Shown: one piece after another, positions 44,852 through 63,482 of the stretch
Position numbering within the stretch: the stretch's first letter is position 1
How the letters are laid out: each line of letters starts with the position of its first letter
DNA from: Bacteroidota bacterium
Lineage (GTDB): Bacteria; Bacteroidota; Bacteroidia; AKYH767-A; 2013-40CM-41-45
Length of the DNA stretch: 64,000 nucleotides
NCBI GenBank assembly: GCA_003389385.1
Contig: QQVM01000016.1
Coordinates: forward strand, 62,001 to 126,000
Direction of reading: 5' to 3'
Notes under the pieces: generated by a model
Seen by the model: the letters and a program-made list of their open reading frames with translations, nothing else
Database searches by the model: none
What the model was told of the DNA's origin: nothing
Program-made: the position numbers and the translations under genes

Positions 44852-47800
44852 ATGAAAAACATCATCAATCAGGTAACAGCTAAATACTTAGTATTTTTAT
44901 TTCTCCTCATCTCCGCCCAATCATCCAAGGGAAGCCATTCCATGGGCGCAGACCTGACATACGAGTGTCTCGGGGGAAATACCTACAGAATCACTGTTTC
45001 ATTTTACCGTGACTGTATTGGAATTCCGGCGCCATCTACTGCTTATGTAAGTATCAATTCTTCGAGCTGCGCACAAAGCCTTGGTGTAACTTGTTACCCA
45101 AGACCAGGAACAGGCCAGGAAGTAACACCGGTCTGTTCAAGCGCTACCACGACATGCAACGGAGGAAGTTTTACCGGAATTCAAGAATGGATTTATGATG
45201 GAATTGTCACGCTTCCGATGCAGTGTACAGACTGGACATTCGCATATTCTTTATGCTGCAGAAATGCTGCTATTACAAACATCAACAATCCGGGTACAAG
45301 TACATTCTATATTTATGCCAATCTGAACAATACGATATCACCTTGCAACAGCTCGCCTGTATTCAGCAATAAACCTGTTCCGTTTCTATGCCTGGGACAG
45401 CAGTTTTGCTTCAATCACGGGGCACATGACCCTGACGGAGATTCTCTTGTTTATGAATTGATAACTCCAAGGCAGAGTGTTTCAGCTACAGTTAACTACA
45501 AAGCTCCGTACAATGCGAACAATCCGCTAAACTCATCGCCTGCCACATCATTCAGTACTGTGACAGGTGATATTTGCATGACACCAATGGCACTTGAAGT
45601 TACTGTTATGGCAGTGCTTGTGAGAGAATTCAGGAACGGAGTTCAAATCGGTGCAGTGGAAAGAGACCTTCAGCTGACAGTAAGAAATTGCAATAACAAC
45701 CTGCCGTCTCTTACAGGAATAAACGGTACAAATAACTTTTCAATTACGATCTGTGCGAATACTCAAACTTGTTTTGACATATTCTCCATTGATCCGGATG
45801 CCGGACAAAATCTTACTGTTACATGGGATTATGGAATTCCAGGTGCACAGTTCAATACCAGTTCCGGACCAAGGCCGACCGGAACTTTTTGCTGGAATCC
45901 CTCATCATCGGAAATAGGGCAATCTTTTTCATTCACAGCGACAGTGGCAGACGATGCATGTCCCTATTACGGAACACAAACTTATTCATATACTGTCAAT
46001 GTTATCGGAATAAGCGTGAATGCAGGTCCGGATCAGGAAATTGCCTGCAGCGATTTAGCTACTTTAACTGCTGTTGCTAGCGGCGGAAGTGGTCCGTACA
46101 CATATTTATGGAGTACTGGATCTACCATGCAATCGATCACCATGGGCACAGGAACATATTGGGTGACTGCAAGTGACGGAACTTGTACTGCTACAGACAC
46201 AGTGGTAGTGACTATGCCTTATATTCCGACAGCTGCATTTACTTACACTCCAATTACCTGTATCAATGCCCCTATTACTTTTACAGATCAATCAACCACT
46301 CCAGGCGGTATCATTACCAACTGGTACTGGAATTTCGGTGATGGCAACACATCCACGATTAGGAATCCGGTTCACACCTTTCCTTCTGCCGGCACTTATA
46401 ATGTAAGTCTTGTTGTTGAAAACAACCTTGGTTGTTTGGATACGATTGTACAAGCGGTAGCAATAACAGATCCTCCGGTGAGCAATTTCAACTTTGTCAA
46501 TTCCTGTCAGGGTAATGCTGTTGTGTTTACAGACCAAAGCACTCCTGCAGGCAGCGTCAACGCCTGGGTTTGGAATTTCGGCGACGGAAATACTTCGGTC
46601 AGCCAGAATCCTTCACACATATACGCCAATTCAGGAACTTATACTGTTACATTAAATACCACTACAAGTAACGGTTGTACATCTTCAGTCCAAAGAAACG
46701 TGACTGTATATCCAAGACCGGTCATCAATGCCGGTGCTGACCAGACGATTTGCGCCGGTAACAGCATTACCCTCAGTGCCAGCGGCGGGCAAACTTATGT
46801 ATGGAACCCGGGCGGAACAGGAAGCACGATTACTGTCAGCCCTGGCGGTTCTACTACATATATCGTTAGCGGCACTGATATGAATGGATGCTCCTCGACA
46901 GATACAGTGGTAGTAAACATATTGCCTGTGCCTAATGTGAATGCAGGTGCCGACAGAACAATTTGTATTGGTGGTTCAGTAACACTTACTGCGACCGGGG
47001 CAAGCAGTTACATCTGGAACCCAGGTGGAATGACAGGAAGCACAATCACAGTGAGTCCGGGATCTACAACAAATTATACAGTAACAGGAACATCTTCCAA
47101 CGGCTGTACCGCTTCTGATGCCGTGCTTGTGACTGTTAATTCTTTGCCGCTTGCAAATGCCGGACCTGATGCAAACATCTGTTCGGGTACACAAGCTACT
47201 CTGACTGCAAGCGGGGGCAACGCATATAGTTGGACACCTGGCGGCAGCACAAACCAGACTATCACGGTCAGTCCTGGAACGACAAGCTCATATGTTGTCA
47301 CAGTTACTAATGCAAATGGTTGTACATCAAGAGACACTGTTGTAGTGAATGTTCACCAGCCACCGGCCGTACAGATGCAGTCAATATTCCTTTGTTCAGG
47401 AAGCTCCTTGACACTTGATGCTGGTGCAAGCGCAGCAACTTACATCTGGACTCCTACCGGGGACACTACCAGATCCATCACTATCAGCTCAGGAGGAACC
47501 TATACAGTCACTGCTACCTCATCTCAGGGATGCAGTGCCAGCGCAAGCGCAACAGTTACAGAAGGTACCATCATACAAGTCATGCTTGACGACGTTTCAT
47601 TCTGCCAGGGCGACAGCGCTGTGCTGGATGCAGGCCATCCTGGAATGAATCATAACTGGAGCACAGGCCAGACTTCGCAGAGCATTACAATCTACAATGG
47701 AGGAACTTACTCGGTAACCGTTAGTGACAACTTTGGCTGTACAGGTTCTGTGACCATAAACGCGACAGTATCACCGCTTCCGCAGGCAGGTTTTATTTCA

Positions 47801-50800
47801 GGCGCAGCCTGTGAAAACACAACTTTGGCATTCACAGACACCTCTTCGCTCAATTCAGGATCAGTAACCGGATGGAGCTGGGATTTCGGAGACGGAAACA
47901 GCTCTTCGGTCCAAAACCCATCACATACTTATACCAGTTCAGGCTTATACTCTGTTCAACTAAACATTAGCAGCGATGCAGGATGTACCTCATCGGTTAC
48001 AGGGAATGTTTACATAAACCCACTTCCATCAGTAGACTTCTCGGCAAACAATGCATGCGCAGGTTCTCCTGTTTCATTTAATGACCAGTCTTCTGTGAAT
48101 CCTGGAAATATAAATTCCTGGTCATGGAATTTTGGCGACGGTAATACTTCGGTCGTTCAGAATCCATCTCACGTGTATTCCGGTGCGGGAAGTTACACTG
48201 TAAGCCTGACCGTAACTACATCTTCGGGATGCTCTGCTACAGGAACATCGACAGTGACTATTCATCCAAAACCAAATGCAGCATTCAGCACCTCTTCAGT
48301 GTGCCAGGGCAATGCAAGCAATTTTATCAATAATACAACAATAAGCAGCGGCTCAGTTTCATCTTATTACTGGAACTTCGGAAATGCTTCCACTTCAGGA
48401 CAGAGTCATCCGGTTGTGAACTACTCAAATCCGGGCAACTATAATGTACAACTGATAGCCACCTCATCATTCGGATGTTCTGACTCTGTTACAGCGCCAG
48501 TAATTGTTTATCCTCGTCCGATCGCAAACGCAGGCAGCGATACAGTGATCTGCAGAAACAGCTCAGCCACATTGAGCGCAAGCGGCGGAACTTCATACAC
48601 TTGGACTCCCGGAAATTATAACGGTGCAGTTTATACTGTGAGTCCTGCTTCCAATACAAGCTACACTGTTACCGTAACAGACCTTAACGGATGTACTGCA
48701 AGTGATGCGGTGAACGTTTCTGTAAATCAGTTGCCCAGTCTTAGCGCTTCTCCTGCTACAAATATCTGTACAGGCAACACTGCAAACCTCTCTGCAAGCG
48801 GGGCCGTGACGTATACGTGGCAACCTGGAAACATTGGTGGTCAGAATATCAGCGTAACTCCGACAAGCTCCACCAATTATACTGTGACAGGTACAGACAT
48901 GAATGGATGTACAGCCACTGCGAATGTCAATGTAACAGTAAATGCATTACCGATTATCAATGCAGGTCCAGACAGGACAATTTGCAACGGCTCAACAATT
49001 TCAATCAGTGCTACCGGCGCTACAAGTTACAACTGGAATCCGACAGGCATGACAGGATCAAGCATATTGGTTTCACCTTCATCGAATACAACATACATTG
49101 TCACTGGTATAAACTCTAATGGATGTCAGAACAGCGATACAGTTAATGTAATGGTGAATCCCTCACCCAGTATCAGCCTGACTCCTGTCTTCATCTGTCA
49201 AGGATTCAGTGCAGTGATCGATGCAGGAAACAGCGGATCAAGCTATACATGGTCAACAGGAGAAACCACGCAAAGCATCACGGTCAGTAATGCCGGAAGT
49301 ATCAGTGTGACAGTCCGTAACAGTTTTGGTTGCAATACTAATGCCTCCACAAATGTTACAGTCGGAAACGCTCCGAACAATCCTCCTGTCCAGCTTGCTA
49401 TATGCGACGGACAATCAGCGACGCTGGATGCCGGAAATCCCGGAAGCACATATACCTGGTCTAATGGTTCCAATTCCCAAACTGTCAGCGTCAGCAATGC
49501 CGGAAACTATTCTGTTCAAATTACAAATCCGAATGGTTGCAGCGCTGTTCAAGTCCATACCTTGACTGTCAATCCACTTCCCATTGCCTCCTTCAGTTTG
49601 CAACAGGCTTGTGACGGATTGCCGGTGAATTTCAGCAATCAGTCTTCAATAAGCAGCGGAAGCATTCAGTCATATCTTTGGGATTTCGGAGACAACACAG
49701 TTTCATCCACTCAGAGTCCTTCACATACATATCCGAACTCAGGAGGCTTTACAGCAAGCCTTACTGTAACAAGCAATGCCGGTTGTACTTCATCAACTTC
49801 AAGAAATTTGGGAGTCTATCCATTGCCGGTTGCAAGATTCAGCAATACAAATGCCTGTCATGGCAGTCCTGTGAATTTCACCGACTCCTCTTACATCAAC
49901 AATGGCAACATTGCATCATGGAACTGGAATTTCGGAAACAATGCAAGCGCGAGCGGAAACAGCGCAAGCCATACATATGCAAATCCGGGAACATACCAGG
50001 CTATTCTCACAGTGGTATCTGATGAGGGCTGTACAAGCAGCGTTTCAAGACCTGTAAGTATTTATCAGTTGCCACAGGCAAGTATTTCGGTTGGCAATAC
50101 ATGCACAAATCAGAATGCGAATTTCAGCAGCTCGGTAAATCCTGGTTCAGGAAGCATTGCCTCCTACTCCTGGAATTTTGGTGACGGAAGTGTTTCATCG
50201 CTCTCAAATCCTTCACATCTATATTCTGCACCGGGAGTTTATTCTGTTCAACTTGAAGTAAGAAACAGTTATGGCTGTATAAGTTCAGCAAACAGCAGCA
50301 TTACATCATATCCATTGCCGCAAGCTGCATTCAGCGCACCTGACGCATGTCAGTATTCAGCAATCAGCTTCACCCAGAATTCTACAATAACTGCAGGTGT
50401 AATAAGTTCATACTACTGGAATTTCGGAGACAATAACAGTTCAGGACAGGCTTCACCGGTTCATTCATATAGTTCAAGCGGAACTTATACAGTAAGTCTT
50501 ATTGCAGTCTCGTCTAATGGCTGCATGGATACAAGTGAGATGAATCTGACTGTAAACCCTCTGCCTCAGGTTGTATTCTCTGCGCCTGATGCCTGTGCCG
50601 GAACCTTTATTCAATTTAACAATCAAAGTTACGCTTCGAACGGAAACATCAGCAGTGTACAATGGGATTTTGGTGACGGAACGATTTCCTCTCTTCAAAA
50701 CCCGGTACATACTTATTACAATCCTGGAACTTACAATGTTCAACTGACAGCAATTTCATCTGCCGGATGTATGGCAGTCTTCGCCATGCCGGTGAACAGT

Positions 50801-52567
50801 TATCCTACTCCACAGGCAGACTTTGCAAGCCAACCGGTTTGTGATGGTTTCTCAACAATATTCTACAATCAAAGTTATGTGCCGGGCGGATCTGGTTATA
50901 CAAATGAATGGAGTTTCGGAGATGGTGCGCGTTCAGTACAACACAGCCCTGTGCACCAGTATGGAGCCTCAGGTGTCTATGGCACAAGCCTCACTGTAAC
51001 CAGTGACCATGGTTGTACTGTTACAGTAGCACAGGTGAACAGAGTTTATGCGAATCCTGTTCCTGACTTCAGCACCGCTGACGTTTGCGTCGGAAATTCG
51101 ACAACATTCACCGACAATTCTGTATCCTCAGACGGAAATATATCTTCTTGGCGCTGGAATTTTGGTGACGGAAGTTCATCTAGTCAGAAAAGTCCTGTGC
51201 ATACATATCAGCAACCGGGAATATATCAGATTGAACTCATTACAGTAAGTGAGTTTGGATGTATGTCAAGAATGCTTGGCACGGTTGAAGTTTTCAGCAG
51301 TGCAAAGCCCCAAATACAAACTGCAAATGCATGTGCGGGCAGTTCAATCCAGTTCATCAATAACACAACGAATAATACCGGTTCACAACTGAGTTATTCA
51401 TGGGATCTCGGGAACGGTGTTCGCGTCGACAGCTCAAGCGTCAATGTTACATACAATACTCCGGGAAATTACAAAGTCATCATGACCGCAACAACAGCTG
51501 AAGGTTGCAGTGCGCAAGCAGAAGCTGATGTGGAGATCTATCCCTTGCCTGCAATATCAATTACGGCAGGTAATGCTTGTGAAAATGAAGCTATCCAGTT
51601 CAACAACTCCGCTTCCATTCTTTATGGAGCGATCACCTCCTACCAATGGAATTTGGGCAACGGACAAGTATCTTCTGATCCCACTCCGTCTTACACTTAT
51701 TCCTCAGCTGGAGATTATCAGGTCAGTCTGACTTCAAGTTCAGACAGAGGATGTGTTAATTCTGCAGTTTCTACACTTAGAGTTCATCCAAAACCTTCTG
51801 TTAGTTTCAACTCTGGAATTCAGGGATGTGCTCCGCTGAATGCAGGTTTCACTGATCTCTCTGTAATAAGTACTGGAAATATCAGCGGATGGCTGTGGAA
51901 TTTTGGTGACGGTTCAATTTCAACAAACCAGAACCCTCAACATCTCTACACTAATGGTGGATCTTATGATGTCACTCTGACTGTCGTTTCCGACATGGGT
52001 TGCAGCAATACTTTCACTAACAGGAACAGCGTAACTGTCTTCGGACAACCTACGGCAAATTTTACCGCAGATCCGATTCATACGGATATCCTGACTCCTA
52101 CAGTTCACTTCACAAATTTGAGCCAGTCATATACAAGCTTTGTGTGGTCATTCGGTGACGGGACGGTGAATACAACTGATATCAATCCTGTACATACATT
52201 CAGAGACACAGGGATTTATTATGCACAGCTGATTACTGTTAACGCTTATGGTTGCCGTGATACAGTGGCCAGATATATTGAAGTGAGACCTAAGTCTACA
52301 TTATTTATTCCTAATTGCTTTACCCCGAACGGTGATGGCCATAACGACCAGTTCATGCCATATCATACCAATATGGAAGATATACAGGTATGGATTTTTG
52401 ACAGATGGGGATTGCTGTTGACAGAATGGAATTCATTGCATGGTTCATGGGATGGATATTACCAGGGTCAAAAATGCCAGCAGGATGTATATGTGTATAA
52501 AATCAAAGGTCGTGGTATCGACGGTAAATTCTCAGAATGGGTAGGACATGTGAGTATAGTCTATTAA
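44852..52567 (+). CDS. Giant secreted PKD/Ig-like repeat protein with T9SS type B (gliding motility-associated) C-terminal domain
   Basis: 2571 aa; signal peptide; about 16 PKD modules (WNFGDGN...NPSHTY), about 10 Ig-like modules (NAGxDxxIC...YxWxPG), one SprB-like module; C-term STLFIPNCFTPNGDGHNDQF...FDRWGLLLTEW...GVYVYKIKG-type. Confidence 0.95.
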   Translation: MKNIINQVTAKYLVFLFLLISAQSSKGSHSMGADLTYECLGGNTYRITVSFYRDCIGIPAPSTAYVSINSSSCAQSLGVTCYPRPGTGQEVTPVCSSATTTCNGGSFTGIQEWIYDGIVTLPMQCTDWTFAYSLCCRNAAITNINNPGTSTFYIYANLNNTISPCNSSPVFSNKPVPFLCLGQQFCFNHGAHDPDGDSLVYELITPRQSVSATVNYKAPYNANNPLNSSPATSFSTVTGDICMTPMALEVTVMAVLVREFRNGVQIGAVERDLQLTVRNCNNNLPSLTGINGTNNFSITICANTQTCFDIFSIDPDAGQNLTVTWDYGIPGAQFNTSSGPRPTGTFCWNPSSSEIGQSFSFTATVADDACPYYGTQTYSYTVNVIGISVNAGPDQEIACSDLATLTAVASGGSGPYTYLWSTGSTMQSITMGTGTYWVTASDGTCTATDTVVVTMPYIPTAAFTYTPITCINAPITFTDQSTTPGGIITNWYWNFGDGNTSTIRNPVHTFPSAGTYNVSLVVENNLGCLDTIVQAVAITDPPVSNFNFVNSCQGNAVVFTDQSTPAGSVNAWVWNFGDGNTSVSQNPSHIYANSGTYTVTLNTTTSNGCTSSVQRNVTVYPRPVINAGADQTICAGNSITLSASGGQTYVWNPGGTGSTITVSPGGSTTYIVSGTDMNGCSSTDTVVVNILPVPNVNAGADRTICIGGSVTLTATGASSYIWNPGGMTGSTITVSPGSTTNYTVTGTSSNGCTASDAVLVTVNSLPLANAGPDANICSGTQATLTASGGNAYSWTPGGSTNQTITVSPGTTSSYVVTVTNANGCTSRDTVVVNVHQPPAVQMQSIFLCSGSSLTLDAGASAATYIWTPTGDTTRSITISSGGTYTVTATSSQGCSASASATVTEGTIIQVMLDDVSFCQGDSAVLDAGHPGMNHNWSTGQTSQSITIYNGGTYSVTVSDNFGCTGSVTINATVSPLPQAGFISGAACENTTLAFTDTSSLNSGSVTGWSWDFGDGNSSSVQNPSHTYTSSGLYSVQLNISSDAGCTSSVTGNVYINPLPSVDFSANNACAGSPVSFNDQSSVNPGNINSWSWNFGDGNTSVVQNPSHVYSGAGSYTVSLTVTTSSGCSATGTSTVTIHPKPNAAFSTSSVCQGNASNFINNTTISSGSVSSYYWNFGNASTSGQSHPVVNYSNPGNYNVQLIATSSFGCSDSVTAPVIVYPRPIANAGSDTVICRNSSATLSASGGTSYTWTPGNYNGAVYTVSPASNTSYTVTVTDLNGCTASDAVNVSVNQLPSLSASPATNICTGNTANLSASGAVTYTWQPGNIGGQNISVTPTSSTNYTVTGTDMNGCTATANVNVTVNALPIINAGPDRTICNGSTISISATGATSYNWNPTGMTGSSILVSPSSNTTYIVTGINSNGCQNSDTVNVMVNPSPSISLTPVFICQGFSAVIDAGNSGSSYTWSTGETTQSITVSNAGSISVTVRNSFGCNTNASTNVTVGNAPNNPPVQLAICDGQSATLDAGNPGSTYTWSNGSNSQTVSVSNAGNYSVQITNPNGCSAVQVHTLTVNPLPIASFSLQQACDGLPVNFSNQSSISSGSIQSYLWDFGDNTVSSTQSPSHTYPNSGGFTASLTVTSNAGCTSSTSRNLGVYPLPVARFSNTNACHGSPVNFTDSSYINNGNIASWNWNFGNNASASGNSASHTYANPGTYQAILTVVSDEGCTSSVSRPVSIYQLPQASISVGNTCTNQNANFSSSVNPGSGSIASYSWNFGDGSVSSLSNPSHLYSAPGVYSVQLEVRNSYGCISSANSSITSYPLPQAAFSAPDACQYSAISFTQNSTITAGVISSYYWNFGDNNSSGQASPVHSYSSSGTYTVSLIAVSSNGCMDTSEMNLTVNPLPQVVFSAPDACAGTFIQFNNQSYASNGNISSVQWDFGDGTISSLQNPVHTYYNPGTYNVQLTAISSAGCMAVFAMPVNSYPTPQADFASQPVCDGFSTIFYNQSYVPGGSGYTNEWSFGDGARSVQHSPVHQYGASGVYGTSLTVTSDHGCTVTVAQVNRVYANPVPDFSTADVCVGNSTTFTDNSVSSDGNISSWRWNFGDGSSSSQKSPVHTYQQPGIYQIELITVSEFGCMSRMLGTVEVFSSAKPQIQTANACAGSSIQFINNTTNNTGSQLSYSWDLGNGVRVDSSSVNVTYNTPGNYKVIMTATTAEGCSAQAEADVEIYPLPAISITAGNACENEAIQFNNSASILYGAITSYQWNLGNGQVSSDPTPSYTYSSAGDYQVSLTSSSDRGCVNSAVSTLRVHPKPSVSFNSGIQGCAPLNAGFTDLSVISTGNISGWLWNFGDGSISTNQNPQHLYTNGGSYDVTLTVVSDMGCSNTFTNRNSVTVFGQPTANFTADPIHTDILTPTVHFTNLSQSYTSFVWSFGDGTVNTTDINPVHTFRDTGIYYAQLITVNAYGCRDTVARYIEVRPKSTLFIPNCFTPNGDGHNDQFMPYHTNMEDIQVWIFDRWGLLLTEWNSLHGSWDGYYQGQKCQQDVYVYKIKGRGIDGKFSEWVGHVSIVY
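46721..50320 (+). repeat. Possible tandem supra-domain repeat: two blocks of [5 Ig-like + 3 PKD] of about 1.8 kb each
   Basis: Module order read from the translation; block A about 46721-48520, block B about 48521-50320; both begin after a VYPRP linker with xxNAGxDxxIC. Confidence 0.5.
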
Positions 52568-55716: not shown

Positions 55717-58419
55717 ATGAAAATGAGAGTTGGAATAATATTCGGAGGCGATTCAAGAGAACGGGAAATTTCATTTGCCGGCGGAAGAACTGTATACGAT
55801 AATCTGAATAAATCTCTCTTCGAAGCTGTTCCGCTGTTTGTCGACAGTTTCAGGAATTTCATTTTAATTGACTGGCAATATATTTACAAAGGCAGCATCC
55901 GTGATTTTTATCCACCTGTTGAATTTCTTCCTGCCTCTGAAAACGATTTTCAGGTTTATGCCGAAAGTCTGGGAGAACGGAATCCACTTCAGGAAGAAAA
56001 ACTATTTTCCAAACTAGGGAAAAAAGTCAGGCCCGATGAACTGACCGATCTCATCGATTTCGCTTTTCTTTGTCTTCATGGTCCTTACGGAGAAGATGGA
56101 AAAATTCAAGGGTTGTTAGAATCCGTCGGCCTCCCCTATTCCGGCTCAGGAATATTATCTTCCGCAATCGGCATCAACAAAGTCATCCAGAAAAAACTGA
56201 TGAAGCATGCAGGTTTCCCCGGACCTGCGTTTACATCGATCAGCAGAAGAGAATGGCTCATTTCTGATAAGAACGCTTTTGAAGTAGTAAAGAAAATTTG
56301 CGGATTCCCTTGCGTTGTTAAATCTGCCAGCCAGGGATCATCAATTGGCGTAAGCATTCTGCATCAGGAAGATAAAAACTCATTCGAGGCCGCTGTAGAC
56401 AAATCGTTTTTCATTCGCAGAGTCAGCAACAAAGAATGGAATGCCATGGAGAAATCTGTCATGGCCGCATACATACGAAACCTCTGTGATATCCGGGAAG
56501 GAATCGGAATCCCTGTCAGACTGAATGCAGGAAAAAAATCTGAAATCATCTTCCATCCAGAAATACTGCTTTCACGTCTCAGTGATTTGTTTGAAGGCGG
56601 AACAGAGCAAGTGATCTTGGAATCGCTGGACTCTGAAAGCGAAGTCCTGGTTGAATCATTTATTGCAGGAAAAGAATTTTCCTGCATTGTGATTCGCAAC
56701 AATGATGGCGAACCGGTCGCTCTTCCTCCTACTGAAATCAGAAAAGGAAAAGAATTGTTTGATTACAGATCCAAATACCTTCCGGGACTTTCGCGAAAAA
56801 TCACTCCGATCCACCTCCCTGAGGAACAGATTGAACTCATTCGAAGTGAATGTGAAAGATTATTTAAATCGCTGGCGTTTAATGTTTATGCCAGAATCGA
56901 CGGCTTTATTGACAATAAGGGAAATGTATTCCTGAACGATCCGAATACAACAAGCGGCATGATGCCTTCTTCCTTCTTCTTTCATCAGGCAGCGGAGATC
57001 GGACTGAATCCTTCTCAGTTTCTCAGCTATATCATCAGAACCTCTTTGCTTGAACGCATTGATGGCATGAAGGATTTTGTAAAACTGCCGGATTTGCTGG
57101 ATCAGCTCGACAGAAACATAATTGAACTGAAGAAAGAAGCAAGAAATAGAATCCGAGTAGCTGTGATCATGGGTGGCTATTCTTCCGAAAGACATATCAG
57201 TGTTGAAAGCGGAAGAAACATTTACGAGAAACTTTCATCGTCTGTTAAATACGAAGCCATTCCTGTTTTCCTTAGCGGCGACAGCAATTCATACCGCCTG
57301 ATTCAGATTCCGGTGAATCTGATGTTGAAAGACAACGCTGATGACATTCGAGAGAAAGCTGAGAATTATGTCAATCATCCTGTCATAGACAGAATCATGA
57401 ATCAATGCCAGGGCATCACTTCTCGATACACCATGGAAGCGAATGTGCTTCACCCGCGTGAGCTCAGTTTTGCAGACCTGGCAGAAATGTGCGATGTGGC
57501 TTTCATCGCACTGCACGGAAGACCTGGTGAAGACGGCGCACTTCAAAACGAACTTGAAAAAGTCGGACTGCCATACAACGGATCCGGAATCGATTCTTCA
57601 CAGATAACAATTAACAAATACGAAACAAACGAAATCCTGAAGAAGAACGGATTTCTTGTCGCTGATCACACTCTTGTGAATGAGGCAGACTGGAGAAAGG
57701 ACAAGAAAGAGCTACTGTCCAGAATTTCTTCCAGATTCACTTTTCCATTTATCGCCAAACCTGTAGATGACGGCTGCAGCAGTGCCGTAAAAAAAATCAG
57801 GAATGAAAAAGAGCTTGATGCATTCGCAGAAATGATATTTCGAAAAAGCGAAGATCATGTTCCCTTACCGGCTGAAATTTTGCAATTGAAGCCGAAAGAA
57901 GAATTCCCGATGAAGAATGAATTTCTTATCGAGGAGCTCATCTCCCGCAATAATGCAAAGCGTTTTTTGGAAATTACCGGAGGACTTCTTACTACCGTAA
58001 ACGATGACGGAACAAGGAACTACCAGGCCTTCGAAGCCAGCGAAGCACTTTCGGAAGGAGACGTGCTTTCACTTGAAGAAAAATTTCTTGCCGGAGAAGG
58101 ACAAAATATTACGCCTGCACGTTATTCCACTGATTCTGACTTAAGAAATAAAATCAGTGAAAAGGTCAAAGCTGAACTTGTCCGTGCAGCACAGGTTCTC
58201 AATGTAGAAGGATATGCCCGAATTGACGCTTTCGTAAGGATCTACGACAACAATAAAACAGAAGTGATTTTTATTGAAGTCAACTCGCTTCCGGGAATGA
58301 CTCCCGCAACCTGCATATTCCACCAGTGCGCCATAGCGGGTTACAAGCCTTATGAGTTCATTGACGCAATACTCGAATATGGCATGCAGAGAAAAAAACA
58401 ACTTCAAAAAATAGCCTGA
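55717..58419 (+). CDS. Tandem D-alanine--D-alanine ligase-like protein (two complete ATP-grasp units)
   Basis: 900 aa; unit 1 VGIIFGGDSREREISF...HGPYGEDGKIQGLLESVGLPYSGSG...GSSIGVS...FDYRSKYLPG...DPNTTSGMMPSS; unit 2 VAVIMGGYSSERHISV...HGRPGEDGALQNELEKVGLPYNGSG...DDGCSSAV...EEKFLAG...EVNSLPGMTPAT. Confidence 0.93.
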   Translation: MKMRVGIIFGGDSREREISFAGGRTVYDNLNKSLFEAVPLFVDSFRNFILIDWQYIYKGSIRDFYPPVEFLPASENDFQVYAESLGERNPLQEEKLFSKLGKKVRPDELTDLIDFAFLCLHGPYGEDGKIQGLLESVGLPYSGSGILSSAIGINKVIQKKLMKHAGFPGPAFTSISRREWLISDKNAFEVVKKICGFPCVVKSASQGSSIGVSILHQEDKNSFEAAVDKSFFIRRVSNKEWNAMEKSVMAAYIRNLCDIREGIGIPVRLNAGKKSEIIFHPEILLSRLSDLFEGGTEQVILESLDSESEVLVESFIAGKEFSCIVIRNNDGEPVALPPTEIRKGKELFDYRSKYLPGLSRKITPIHLPEEQIELIRSECERLFKSLAFNVYARIDGFIDNKGNVFLNDPNTTSGMMPSSFFFHQAAEIGLNPSQFLSYIIRTSLLERIDGMKDFVKLPDLLDQLDRNIIELKKEARNRIRVAVIMGGYSSERHISVESGRNIYEKLSSSVKYEAIPVFLSGDSNSYRLIQIPVNLMLKDNADDIREKAENYVNHPVIDRIMNQCQGITSRYTMEANVLHPRELSFADLAEMCDVAFIALHGRPGEDGALQNELEKVGLPYNGSGIDSSQITINKYETNEILKKNGFLVADHTLVNEADWRKDKKELLSRISSRFTFPFIAKPVDDGCSSAVKKIRNEKELDAFAEMIFRKSEDHVPLPAEILQLKPKEEFPMKNEFLIEELISRNNAKRFLEITGGLLTTVNDDGTRNYQAFEASEALSEGDVLSLEEKFLAGEGQNITPARYSTDSDLRNKISEKVKAELVRAAQVLNVEGYARIDAFVRIYDNNKTEVIFIEVNSLPGMTPATCIFHQCAIAGYKPYEFIDAILEYGMQRKKQLQKIA

Positions 58420-58430
58420 ATCCGAAACCC

Positions 58431-59186
58431 GTGGGAATATTCAAGTTTCTTACCAGTAAAACTTTCCTGATCAACCTTGCTATTGCTGCCACAATAGTGG
58501 GTGTCGGAATGTTCACTCTGCTTCGTTGGATTGATTCATATACTTTGCACGGTGAAAGCATTGAAGTGCCAGACCTGAAGGGAATGAAAACCGAACAGCT
58601 CGACACCTTCCTGGCAGCACACAGTCTCAGATACCAGATCATAGACTCTCTATATGATACAAGCAAGAAGCCTGGAACTGTTTTAGATCAGGATCCTGCT
58701 TTTGAATCCAGGGTGAAGAAAGACCGGACAATCTATATAACAGTAAACTCTATACTCCCCCCTAAAGTAAAAATGCCTGATCTAATTGATGTTTCACACA
58801 GGCAGGCAGAAGCTATCCTGACTACTTATGGCTTTAAGGTCGGCAGCATTACATTCGAACCGGACCTGGCAAAAAACGCAGTGATTGCTCAACGCTACAA
58901 AGGCCAGTCTATACGTCCGGGTACAGAAATTCCTAAAGGCTCAGTGATCGATTTAGTACTGGGCGACGGAATGGGCAACTTGGACATCGATGTGCCTGAC
59001 CTTACAGGGCTCACAAAAACTGAAGCCTCCTTCGTATTGCGTGGAGCAGGGCTCAACATTGGGAAAGTGGTTTATGACGAAGAAAACCGAAATCAGGAGA
59101 AAGCTAAAATCTATAAGCAGGAACCTGAAGCCGGGCCAAACTCTTCAATCAGAAACGGCGACCCTGTTGACATCTATCTGCGCTGA
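58431..59186 (+). CDS. PASTA-domain membrane protein (three PASTA repeats, no kinase domain)
   Basis: 251 aa; GTG start; TM; VPDLKGMKTEQLDTFL, MPDLIDVSHRQAEAIL, VPDLTGLTKTEASFVL. Confidence 0.92.
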   Translation: MGIFKFLTSKTFLINLAIAATIVGVGMFTLLRWIDSYTLHGESIEVPDLKGMKTEQLDTFLAAHSLRYQIIDSLYDTSKKPGTVLDQDPAFESRVKKDRTIYITVNSILPPKVKMPDLIDVSHRQAEAILTTYGFKVGSITFEPDLAKNAVIAQRYKGQSIRPGTEIPKGSVIDLVLGDGMGNLDIDVPDLTGLTKTEASFVLRGAGLNIGKVVYDEENRNQEKAKIYKQEPEAGPNSSIRNGDPVDIYLR

Positions 59187-62214: not shown

Positions 62215-63372
62215 TTACTGAGATAACTCCTCTGAATAATCCTTTATCACATTGTAAAGGGTATCCCTTTCAATTGGTCTCCTTCCGCTTTCACGTATGA
62301 GTTCAACAAGCTGCTCTGTTGACAAGGCAGGATTCTGGTCTTCAGCACCTGCCATGCTGTAAATCTTCGTCGAATCATCGATGGTTCCATCCAGATCATC
62401 CACTCCAAATGCCTGGCTTAGCTGAGCCGTGTTTCGACCAATCATCGGCCAGTAGGCTTTCACGTGAGAGAAATTATCGAGGTAAATTCTTGAGACAGCA
62501 TAATTTTTCAGATCTTCAACTACACTGACTTCAGGCACATGTGACATGTCATTTCCCTTATTCCTGAACTTGAGCGGGATGAAGGTATTGAAACCTCCTG
62601 TCACATCCTGCAGCTGACGCAATCTTTCCATATGATGGATTCGGTGAGAATAATCTTCGATGTGACCGTAAAGCATAGTTGCGTTGCTGTGCATTCCCAA
62701 CTTATGTGCGGTTTCATGAATTTCAAGCCACTCATCAGCGTTGCATTTATCTGCGCAAATTTTACTTCTGATTTCTTCATCAAATATCTCCGCGCCTCCA
62801 CCGGGCAAAGAATCAAGCCCTGCTGATTTCATCAGGCGCAAACCTTCTTCTATGTTAACTTTTGCTTTTCTGAACATGTAGTGAAGCTCCACGGCAGTAA
62901 ATCCTTTGATGTGAAGATCAGGTCTGAGCATTCTGATTTCTTTCAATAAGCGTATGAAAAAATCAAGATTCATTTTGGGGTGCACTCCTCCAACGATATG
63001 CACTTCAGTTACAGGTTGACCTTTGTACTTTTTTACCAGATCGAGCATCTGATCCAGACTTAACTCCCAACCTTCTTCCTTTTCCTTCAGCATTCTGGAA
63101 TATGAGCAAAAGTTACAGGTGAATACACAGATATTCGTGGGCTCAATGTGAAAATTCCTGTTGAAGTAAGTCGTCTTACCATTCTTCCGCTCTCTAACCG
63201 CATTCGCAAGTGAGCCTAAAAATCCAAGACTTGCATCGCTGTATAAAATAAGTCCTTCTTCAGGCGTGATTCTCTCAGAAGCAAGCACCTTAGCAGCAAT
63301 TGCTTCAAGCCTTGGATCCCGGTTCTCATCCTGATATATGAAGCTTTCGAAAACAGTTTGATTATAAATCAT
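62215..63372 (-). CDS. mqnE: Aminofutalosine synthase (radical SAM)
   Basis: CVFTCNFCSY (CxxxCxxC), IVGGVHPKMNLDFF, LKSAGLDSLPGGGAEIFDEEIR-type, FNTFIPLKFRNKGNDMSH. Start MIYNQTVF (63372) preferred. Confidence 0.92.
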   Translation of the reverse strand: MIYNQTVFESFIYQDENRDPRLEAIAAKVLASERITPEEGLILYSDASLGFLGSLANAVRERKNGKTTYFNRNFHIEPTNICVFTCNFCSYSRMLKEKEEGWELSLDQMLDLVKKYKGQPVTEVHIVGGVHPKMNLDFFIRLLKEIRMLRPDLHIKGFTAVELHYMFRKAKVNIEEGLRLMKSAGLDSLPGGGAEIFDEEIRSKICADKCNADEWLEIHETAHKLGMHSNATMLYGHIEDYSHRIHHMERLRQLQDVTGGFNTFIPLKFRNKGNDMSHVPEVSVVEDLKNYAVSRIYLDNFSHVKAYWPMIGRNTAQLSQAFGVDDLDGTIDDSTKIYSMAGAEDQNPALSTEQLVELIRESGRRPIERDTLYNVIKDYSEELSQ

Positions 63373-63379
63373 AACAGAA

Positions 63380-63387
63380 CAAAGATA
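63380..63387 (-). promoter_or_regulatory. Candidate -7 box (TATCTTTG) for mqnE
   Basis: TAnnTTTG on the minus strand 8 nt upstream of the ATG at 63372. Confidence 0.4.
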
Positions 63388-63482
63388 AGCAAAGCCATCC
63401 AAATGAAATCTTCATTGGAAAGGAATTCGTGCATTTCATCCTGATAAAAAACATTATGTATTTTTAAAGCCAGAACATTGCT

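Follow-up and report, generated by a model that had tools for sequence, protein, structure and literature searches.

Why would a bacterium use, as its only D-alanine:D-alanine ligase (Ddl), a protein in which two Ddl units follow each other in one chain, and what might the second unit do when its active-site triad is altered? A textbook case of an essential enzyme and drug target, Ddl is a single unit of ~300-370 aa almost everywhere. The question is raised by a gene within a 64,000-nucleotide stretch of DNA from a Bacteroidota bacterium, the whole of which is referred to as the window. The features on which the following analysis relies are listed below; substitutions such as S150C and the positions of conserved residues follow the numbering of E. 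coli DdlB.

55717..58419, + strand: double (tandem) Ddl gene, 900 aa, the genome's only Ddl (ORF, Pfam, genome-wide PF01820 search)
55717..57135, + strand: N half, aa 1-473, with the canonical E15-S150-Y216 triad (alignment, model)
56338..56340, + strand: N-half Ser208, equivalent to DdlB Ser150 (alignment, 129 doubles)
56776..56778, + strand: N-half Tyr354, equivalent to DdlB Tyr216, in the omega-loop, of which aa 349-358 are low-confidence in the model (alignment, model)
56938..56964, + strand: N-half DPNTTSGMM, the Mg/acceptor motif with E270D and P275S (alignment, 129 doubles)
56974-56976, + strand: N-half L282F, after DPNTTSGMM (alignment, 129 doubles)
57136..58416, + strand: C half, aa 474-900, triad altered and ATP/Mg residues intact (alignment, model, 129 doubles)
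57193..57195, + strand: C-half His493, E17H relative to DdlB Glu17 (invariant in 129 doubles)
57775..57777, + strand: C-half Cys687, S150C relative to DdlB Ser150 (invariant in 129 doubles)
58084..58086, + strand: C-half Phe790, Y216F, in the omega-loop, aa 780-794, low-confidence in the model (invariant in 129 doubles)
58276..58302, + strand: C-half EVNSLPGMT, the canonical Mg/acceptor motif (alignment, 129 doubles)
58309-58314, + strand: C-half S281T and L282C, after EVNSLPGMT (alignment, 129 doubles)
58431..59186, + strand: PASTA-domain protein without a kinase domain, downstream; its adjacency to ddl, whether double or single, is conserved in the class

The 900 codons at 55717-58419 (+) were read through without interruption. 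In Pfam searches, the ORF matched Dala_Dala_lig_N in two stretches (E 2e-48) and Dala_Dala_lig_C in four (1e-60); PF01820 and PF07478 both scored over their curated cut-offs, and the whole protein exceeded the cut-off of TIGR01205. When each half was searched against the PDB, Ddl structures were retrieved, with best E-values of 2.7e-45 for the N half and 3.9e-22 for the C half. By all family-level features tested, the 900-aa protein belongs to the Ddl family, and the presence of two Ddl units in one ORF, noticed in an earlier sequence-only reading, was confirmed by Pfam and the per-half PDB matches. An AlphaFold2 model of the full protein built from an alignment of 75 doubles (pLDDT 86, pTM 0.86) was placed among Ddls by Foldseek, and for the C half modelled alone (pLDDT 82) the top Foldseek matches were all Ddls or Van/Lm ligases, supporting a Ddl fold in both halves. 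The segments of the full model below 50 pLDDT were the two omega-loops carrying residue 216.

The active-site residues were then assigned by alignment with DdlB and DdlA of E. coli MG1655 and 29 single Ddls. The equivalents of Ser150 and Tyr216 that had been proposed by eye for the N half, and the Ser150 to Cys and Tyr216 to Phe replacements proposed for the C half, all fell where the sequence-only reading had put them, and the three codon positions it gave, for Tyr354, Cys687 and Phe790, were correct. In particular, its EEKF and DGCSS motifs were checked for misplacement and were found at positions 216 and 150, and in a separate profile-based comparison with PDB entries EEKF was aligned with the EAKF of 1IOW, the Y216F mutant of DdlB. 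An N-terminal Glu, equivalent to Glu15, was aligned in both halves, and DPNTTSGMM in the N half and EVNSLPGMT in the C half were likewise as claimed. All of these placements were invariant in 129 doubles and are thus real rather than due to chance.

Compared with the ordinary Ddl (TIGR01205, PF01820 plus PF07478; E. coli DdlB and DdlA), which it resembles in fold, ATP/Mg residues, and the role of sole Ddl, the double differs in having two units per chain, in S150C, Y216F, E17H, and S281T of its C half, and in E270D, P275S, and an insertion of ~70 aa in its N half, the last separating the equivalents of G153 and E180 (about aa 212-312). The Glu15-Ser150-Tyr216 triad of D-Ala-D-Ala-only Ddls is therefore present in the N half and altered in the C half. 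Meanwhile, the ATP/Mg set K97, K144, E180, E187, R255, D257, E270, and N272 was complete in the C half, and in the N half it showed the conservative replacement E270D. In all 58 single Ddls of the phylum that were compared, Ser150, Tyr216, Glu270, Pro275, and Ser281 were found. Phe at position 216 occurs also in D-Ala:D-Ser ligases. Ddls restricted to D-Ala-D-Ala are reported to conserve Ser150 and Tyr216, and DdlB in which these are changed to the residues of Leuconostoc LmDdl2 is reported to show weak D-Ala-D-Lac activity (PMC7691350). Another substrate does not follow from Phe216 and an altered residue 150 alone.

To what extent these residues are maintained was judged from 129 doubles, 119 of them distinct. 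In the N half, Glu15, Ser150, Tyr216, and the ATP residues were kept throughout, Asp270 and Ser275 were always present, and Phe282 was found in 128. In the C half, Cys150, Phe216, His17, and Thr281 were present in 129/129, as were K97, K144, E180, E187, K215, R255, D257, E270, and N272, and residue 282 was Cys in 122. The halves were equally similar among diverse doubles (49% for N, 51% for C), and the median dN/dS over 161 closely related pairs was 0.067 (N) and 0.045 (C); purifying selection on the C half is at least as strong as on the N half. These observations rule out the C half as a decaying pseudo-enzyme and show that it is no annotation fluke either, and the conservation pattern is, as far as sequences tell, that of two selected sites rather than of one site with a decaying copy beside it.

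The double was found to be widespread. A contig search of genomes gave at least 568 relatives, of which the best 80 were without exception intact doubles, about 900 aa long; Pontibacter, Adhaeribacter, and Rhodocytophaga were among their named sources. In the order to which the window belongs, 30 of 34 genomes carried the double without any other Ddl, the remaining four being lacking, broken, or doubtful. Across the class Bacteroidia, the C-half profile matched in 163 of 396 species and 82 of 198 genera, two of these matches being single Ddls, so that about 160 of the sampled species and about 80 of the genera carry the double. In representative genomes of double-bearing genera, PF01820 was found only in the double, contig breaks aside, and no sampled genome of the other classes of the phylum had two PF01820 matches. 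Conservation across dozens of families rules out a fusion by chance or frameshift; the double is widespread and old, not a local oddity. Several apparent deviations were inspected individually. Four genomes (G441, G459, G475, and G404) were explained by contig breaks, and in three others (G403, G409, and G443) no Ddl was found, the gene probably being absent from the assembly. The fusion suggested by a 944-aa Ddl frame in G135 was rejected, since GC-rich DNA there seems to have produced an extended open frame. In one genome of the same family (G396), a short contig (C236) carried a single Ddl that grouped with the DdlA type and may be contamination; no double was found there.

In the phylogenetic tree, the C halves formed one clade and the N halves, together with a shortened form described below, another (100/100 and 100/99), both separate from all single Ddls (98/94). 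Although the branches were long and no root was inferred, this topology is consistent with an old internal duplication. The shortened or "1.5" form has an N half but ends after the first ~100 residues of a C half. In one Bacteroidia family (f11), it was the single Ddl of every genome (41/41); complete genes there were mostly 555-640 aa, and the PASTA gene was not adjacent; in a separate 41-genome sample of this family, each genome had exactly one PF01820 match. All 30 tails examined matched the profile of the C-half N-terminal part, 17 of them below 1e-5, and did so better than the N-half profile, which indicates that the ancestor of the 1.5 forms had a C half. For example, the 623-aa Ddl of Bernardetia sp. 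Wsw4-3y2 (WP_338815673.1; L263:4004-5875), encoded on a replicon of 602 kb that is recorded as a plasmid, has a tail that matched the C-half profile at 1.8e-12 and gave no match with the N-half profile. Nesting of the 1.5 forms among the N halves of the doubles is favoured by the tree (90/94), but a separate N clade was not rejected by the AU test (p 0.51), and either order of core loss and loop change would be compatible with these results.

Since Ddl is needed for peptidoglycan and the 1.5 form is the sole Ddl of its family, an N half of this type can evidently serve as a D-Ala-D-Ala ligase without the C-half core, and the ~100 aa that were kept hint at a structural function for the N-terminal part of the C half. 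In the doubles, the N half may nevertheless behave differently: the 1.5 forms retain Asp270 but have P275 and mostly L282 (26/30, as in DdlB), whereas the doubles have E270D with S275 in all and F282 nearly always. This covariation of the loop with the presence of the C-half core provides a lead rather than a test, few independent events lying behind it.

In its own genome (100% complete by tool estimate), PF01820 gave exactly two matches, both within 55717-58419. The check for another single-domain ddl, which the sequence-only reading had called for, thus retrieved none in a Pfam search of the complete genome, the double being the only PF01820 protein; further PF07478 matches, whose frames lack the N-terminal domain of Ddl, are presumably other ATP-grasp enzymes. 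In addition to the double Ddl, two other peptidoglycan-precursor genes of this genome are fused, namely those for Alr and MurF (contig C2:146658-149126, 835 aa, 1187 bits to NF008897), so that the surrounding pathway is normal and the Ddl product has its usual user.

Taken together, we consider the chances about even that the N half is the D-Ala:D-Ala ligase and the C half a second active site with changed specificity, a reading supported by the invariance in 129 doubles of the catalytic residues of both halves and of the triad changes, and by the low dN/dS. The sole D-Ala:D-Ala ligase of the cell would then be an ancient tandem-duplicated protein, in which the N half would make D-Ala-D-Ala for MurF and the C half, as a second working ATP-grasp ligase site with an altered triad and acceptor pocket, would use another substrate or make another product, for instance one whose second position is taken by a D-hydroxy acid or a different D-amino acid. 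The halves would stay permanently side by side, like a Ddl dimer with its subunits covalently joined. That the halves have diverged to different substrates, as proposed in the sequence-only reading, is an inference now well supported by the kept ATP/Mg residues, the invariant changes of triad and acceptor pocket, and the strong purifying selection. The breadth of the family, its status as sole Ddl, and the 1.5 forms had not been noticed in that reading.

The C half could instead be silent or slow and, in line with the sequence-only reading's remark that one half may be regulatory, a regulatory or structural partner that binds ATP or D-Ala and controls or stabilizes the N half, in effect a fused stand-in for the second subunit of the Ddl dimer. 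Ddl is normally a dimer (PMC6899670), and the 1.5 forms, which lost the ATP-grasp core and kept the C-half N-terminal segment, point to a structural role of that segment. Silent partners, however, usually lose some of their ATP/Mg residues, and the invariance of K97, K144, E187, R255, D257, E270, and N272 in all 129 C halves makes this explanation rather unlikely, although it deserves serious consideration.

We regard it as still less probable that both halves make D-Ala-D-Ala and that the changes only tune the kinetics, so as to raise capacity or to withstand a natural inhibitor, for example D-cycloserine. Such a protein would fit the role of sole Ddl of the genome and the presence of R255, K215, E15, N272, and either E270 or Asp in both halves, but the triad was changed in the C half only, at residues invariant in the single Ddls and, for Ser150 and Tyr216, reported as conserved in D-Ala-D-Ala-only enzymes (PMC7691350).

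A comparably low probability is given to the idea that the halves are complementary and interdependent, catalyzing a two-site reaction in which, for example, two different termini (dipeptide or depsipeptide) would arise or one site would hand its product to the other. This possibility arises because the N half has a changed loop and a kept triad while the C half has a changed triad and a kept EVNxLPGMT, and because S275/F282 (128/129) of the doubles stands against P275 and, for the most part, L282 in the 1.5 forms, from which the C-half core is missing. If true, it would imply a so far undescribed peptidoglycan precursor in a large part of Bacteroidia.

Finally, it is very unlikely that the C half is specifically a D-Ala-D-Lac ligase. 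It does share Phe216 and a non-Ser residue 150 with LmDdl2 (PMC7691350), whose structure 1EHI was its first Foldseek match, but this rank rested on a small margin of little weight (1.7e-21 versus 9.7e-21 for ordinary Ddls; TM 0.63 versus 0.60), 1EHI lay far down the PDB sequence ranking with both it and VanA matching more weakly than ordinary Ddls, Phe216 would also suit a D-Ala:D-Ser ligase, and a search for PF01427 (VanX/VanY-type) proteins found none in the genome, hence no VanX-type dipeptidase and, by this measure, no genomic partner of a D-Lac or D-Ser route. Some depsipeptide activity of the C half is nonetheless suggested as possible by its residues and model. LmDdl2 itself is a single unit with only ~21% identity, and the C half is known here from sequence and model.

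Among known fusions, Chlamydia MurC-Ddl and the Bacteroidota Alr-MurF likewise unite cytoplasmic peptidoglycan-precursor enzymes; these join different enzymes, whereas the double joins two paralogous copies of one. The large subunit of carbamoyl-phosphate synthase, an internally duplicated ATP-grasp protein with diverged halves, offers an analogy only, as it belongs to another family and reaction. No paper describing a tandem Ddl was found in the open-access literature, and the arrangement is apparently undescribed. Its relatives in public genomes, WP_338815673.1 among them, are annotated simply as D-alanine--D-alanine ligase, a name that calls for caution where doubles are concerned. A large share of Bacteroidia relies on the fused double, with a conserved second site bearing changes otherwise linked to glycopeptide resistance; either an unrecognized second cell-wall dipeptide would be made or Ddl would be regulated by its fused sister, and the 1.5 forms represent a natural experiment that makes both options directly testable.

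The neighbours of the double ddl were genes for a prolyl oligopeptidase, the PASTA protein, a 621-aa secreted-type protein, and an RluD-like synthase, with no vanHAX-like genes such as accompany VanA/VanB-type resistance ligases. The PASTA neighbour, taken in the sequence-only reading as a plausible cell-wall context, is real; it says nothing on specificity, since the same gene adjoins many of the ordinary, single-unit ddl genes in the class. The double sits in the usual ddl slot of the class, beside the PASTA gene as in the case of the ordinary Bacteroidia ddl. Elsewhere in the window, a 2571-aa protein upstream of the ddl region (44852-52567) showed, by eye, many repeated Ig/PKD-like units and, again by eye only, a C-terminal end of the gliding/T9SS type, and the gene at 62215-63402 (-) encodes the aminofutalosine synthase MqnE (TIGR03700, over the cut-off), which points to the futalosine route to menaquinone.
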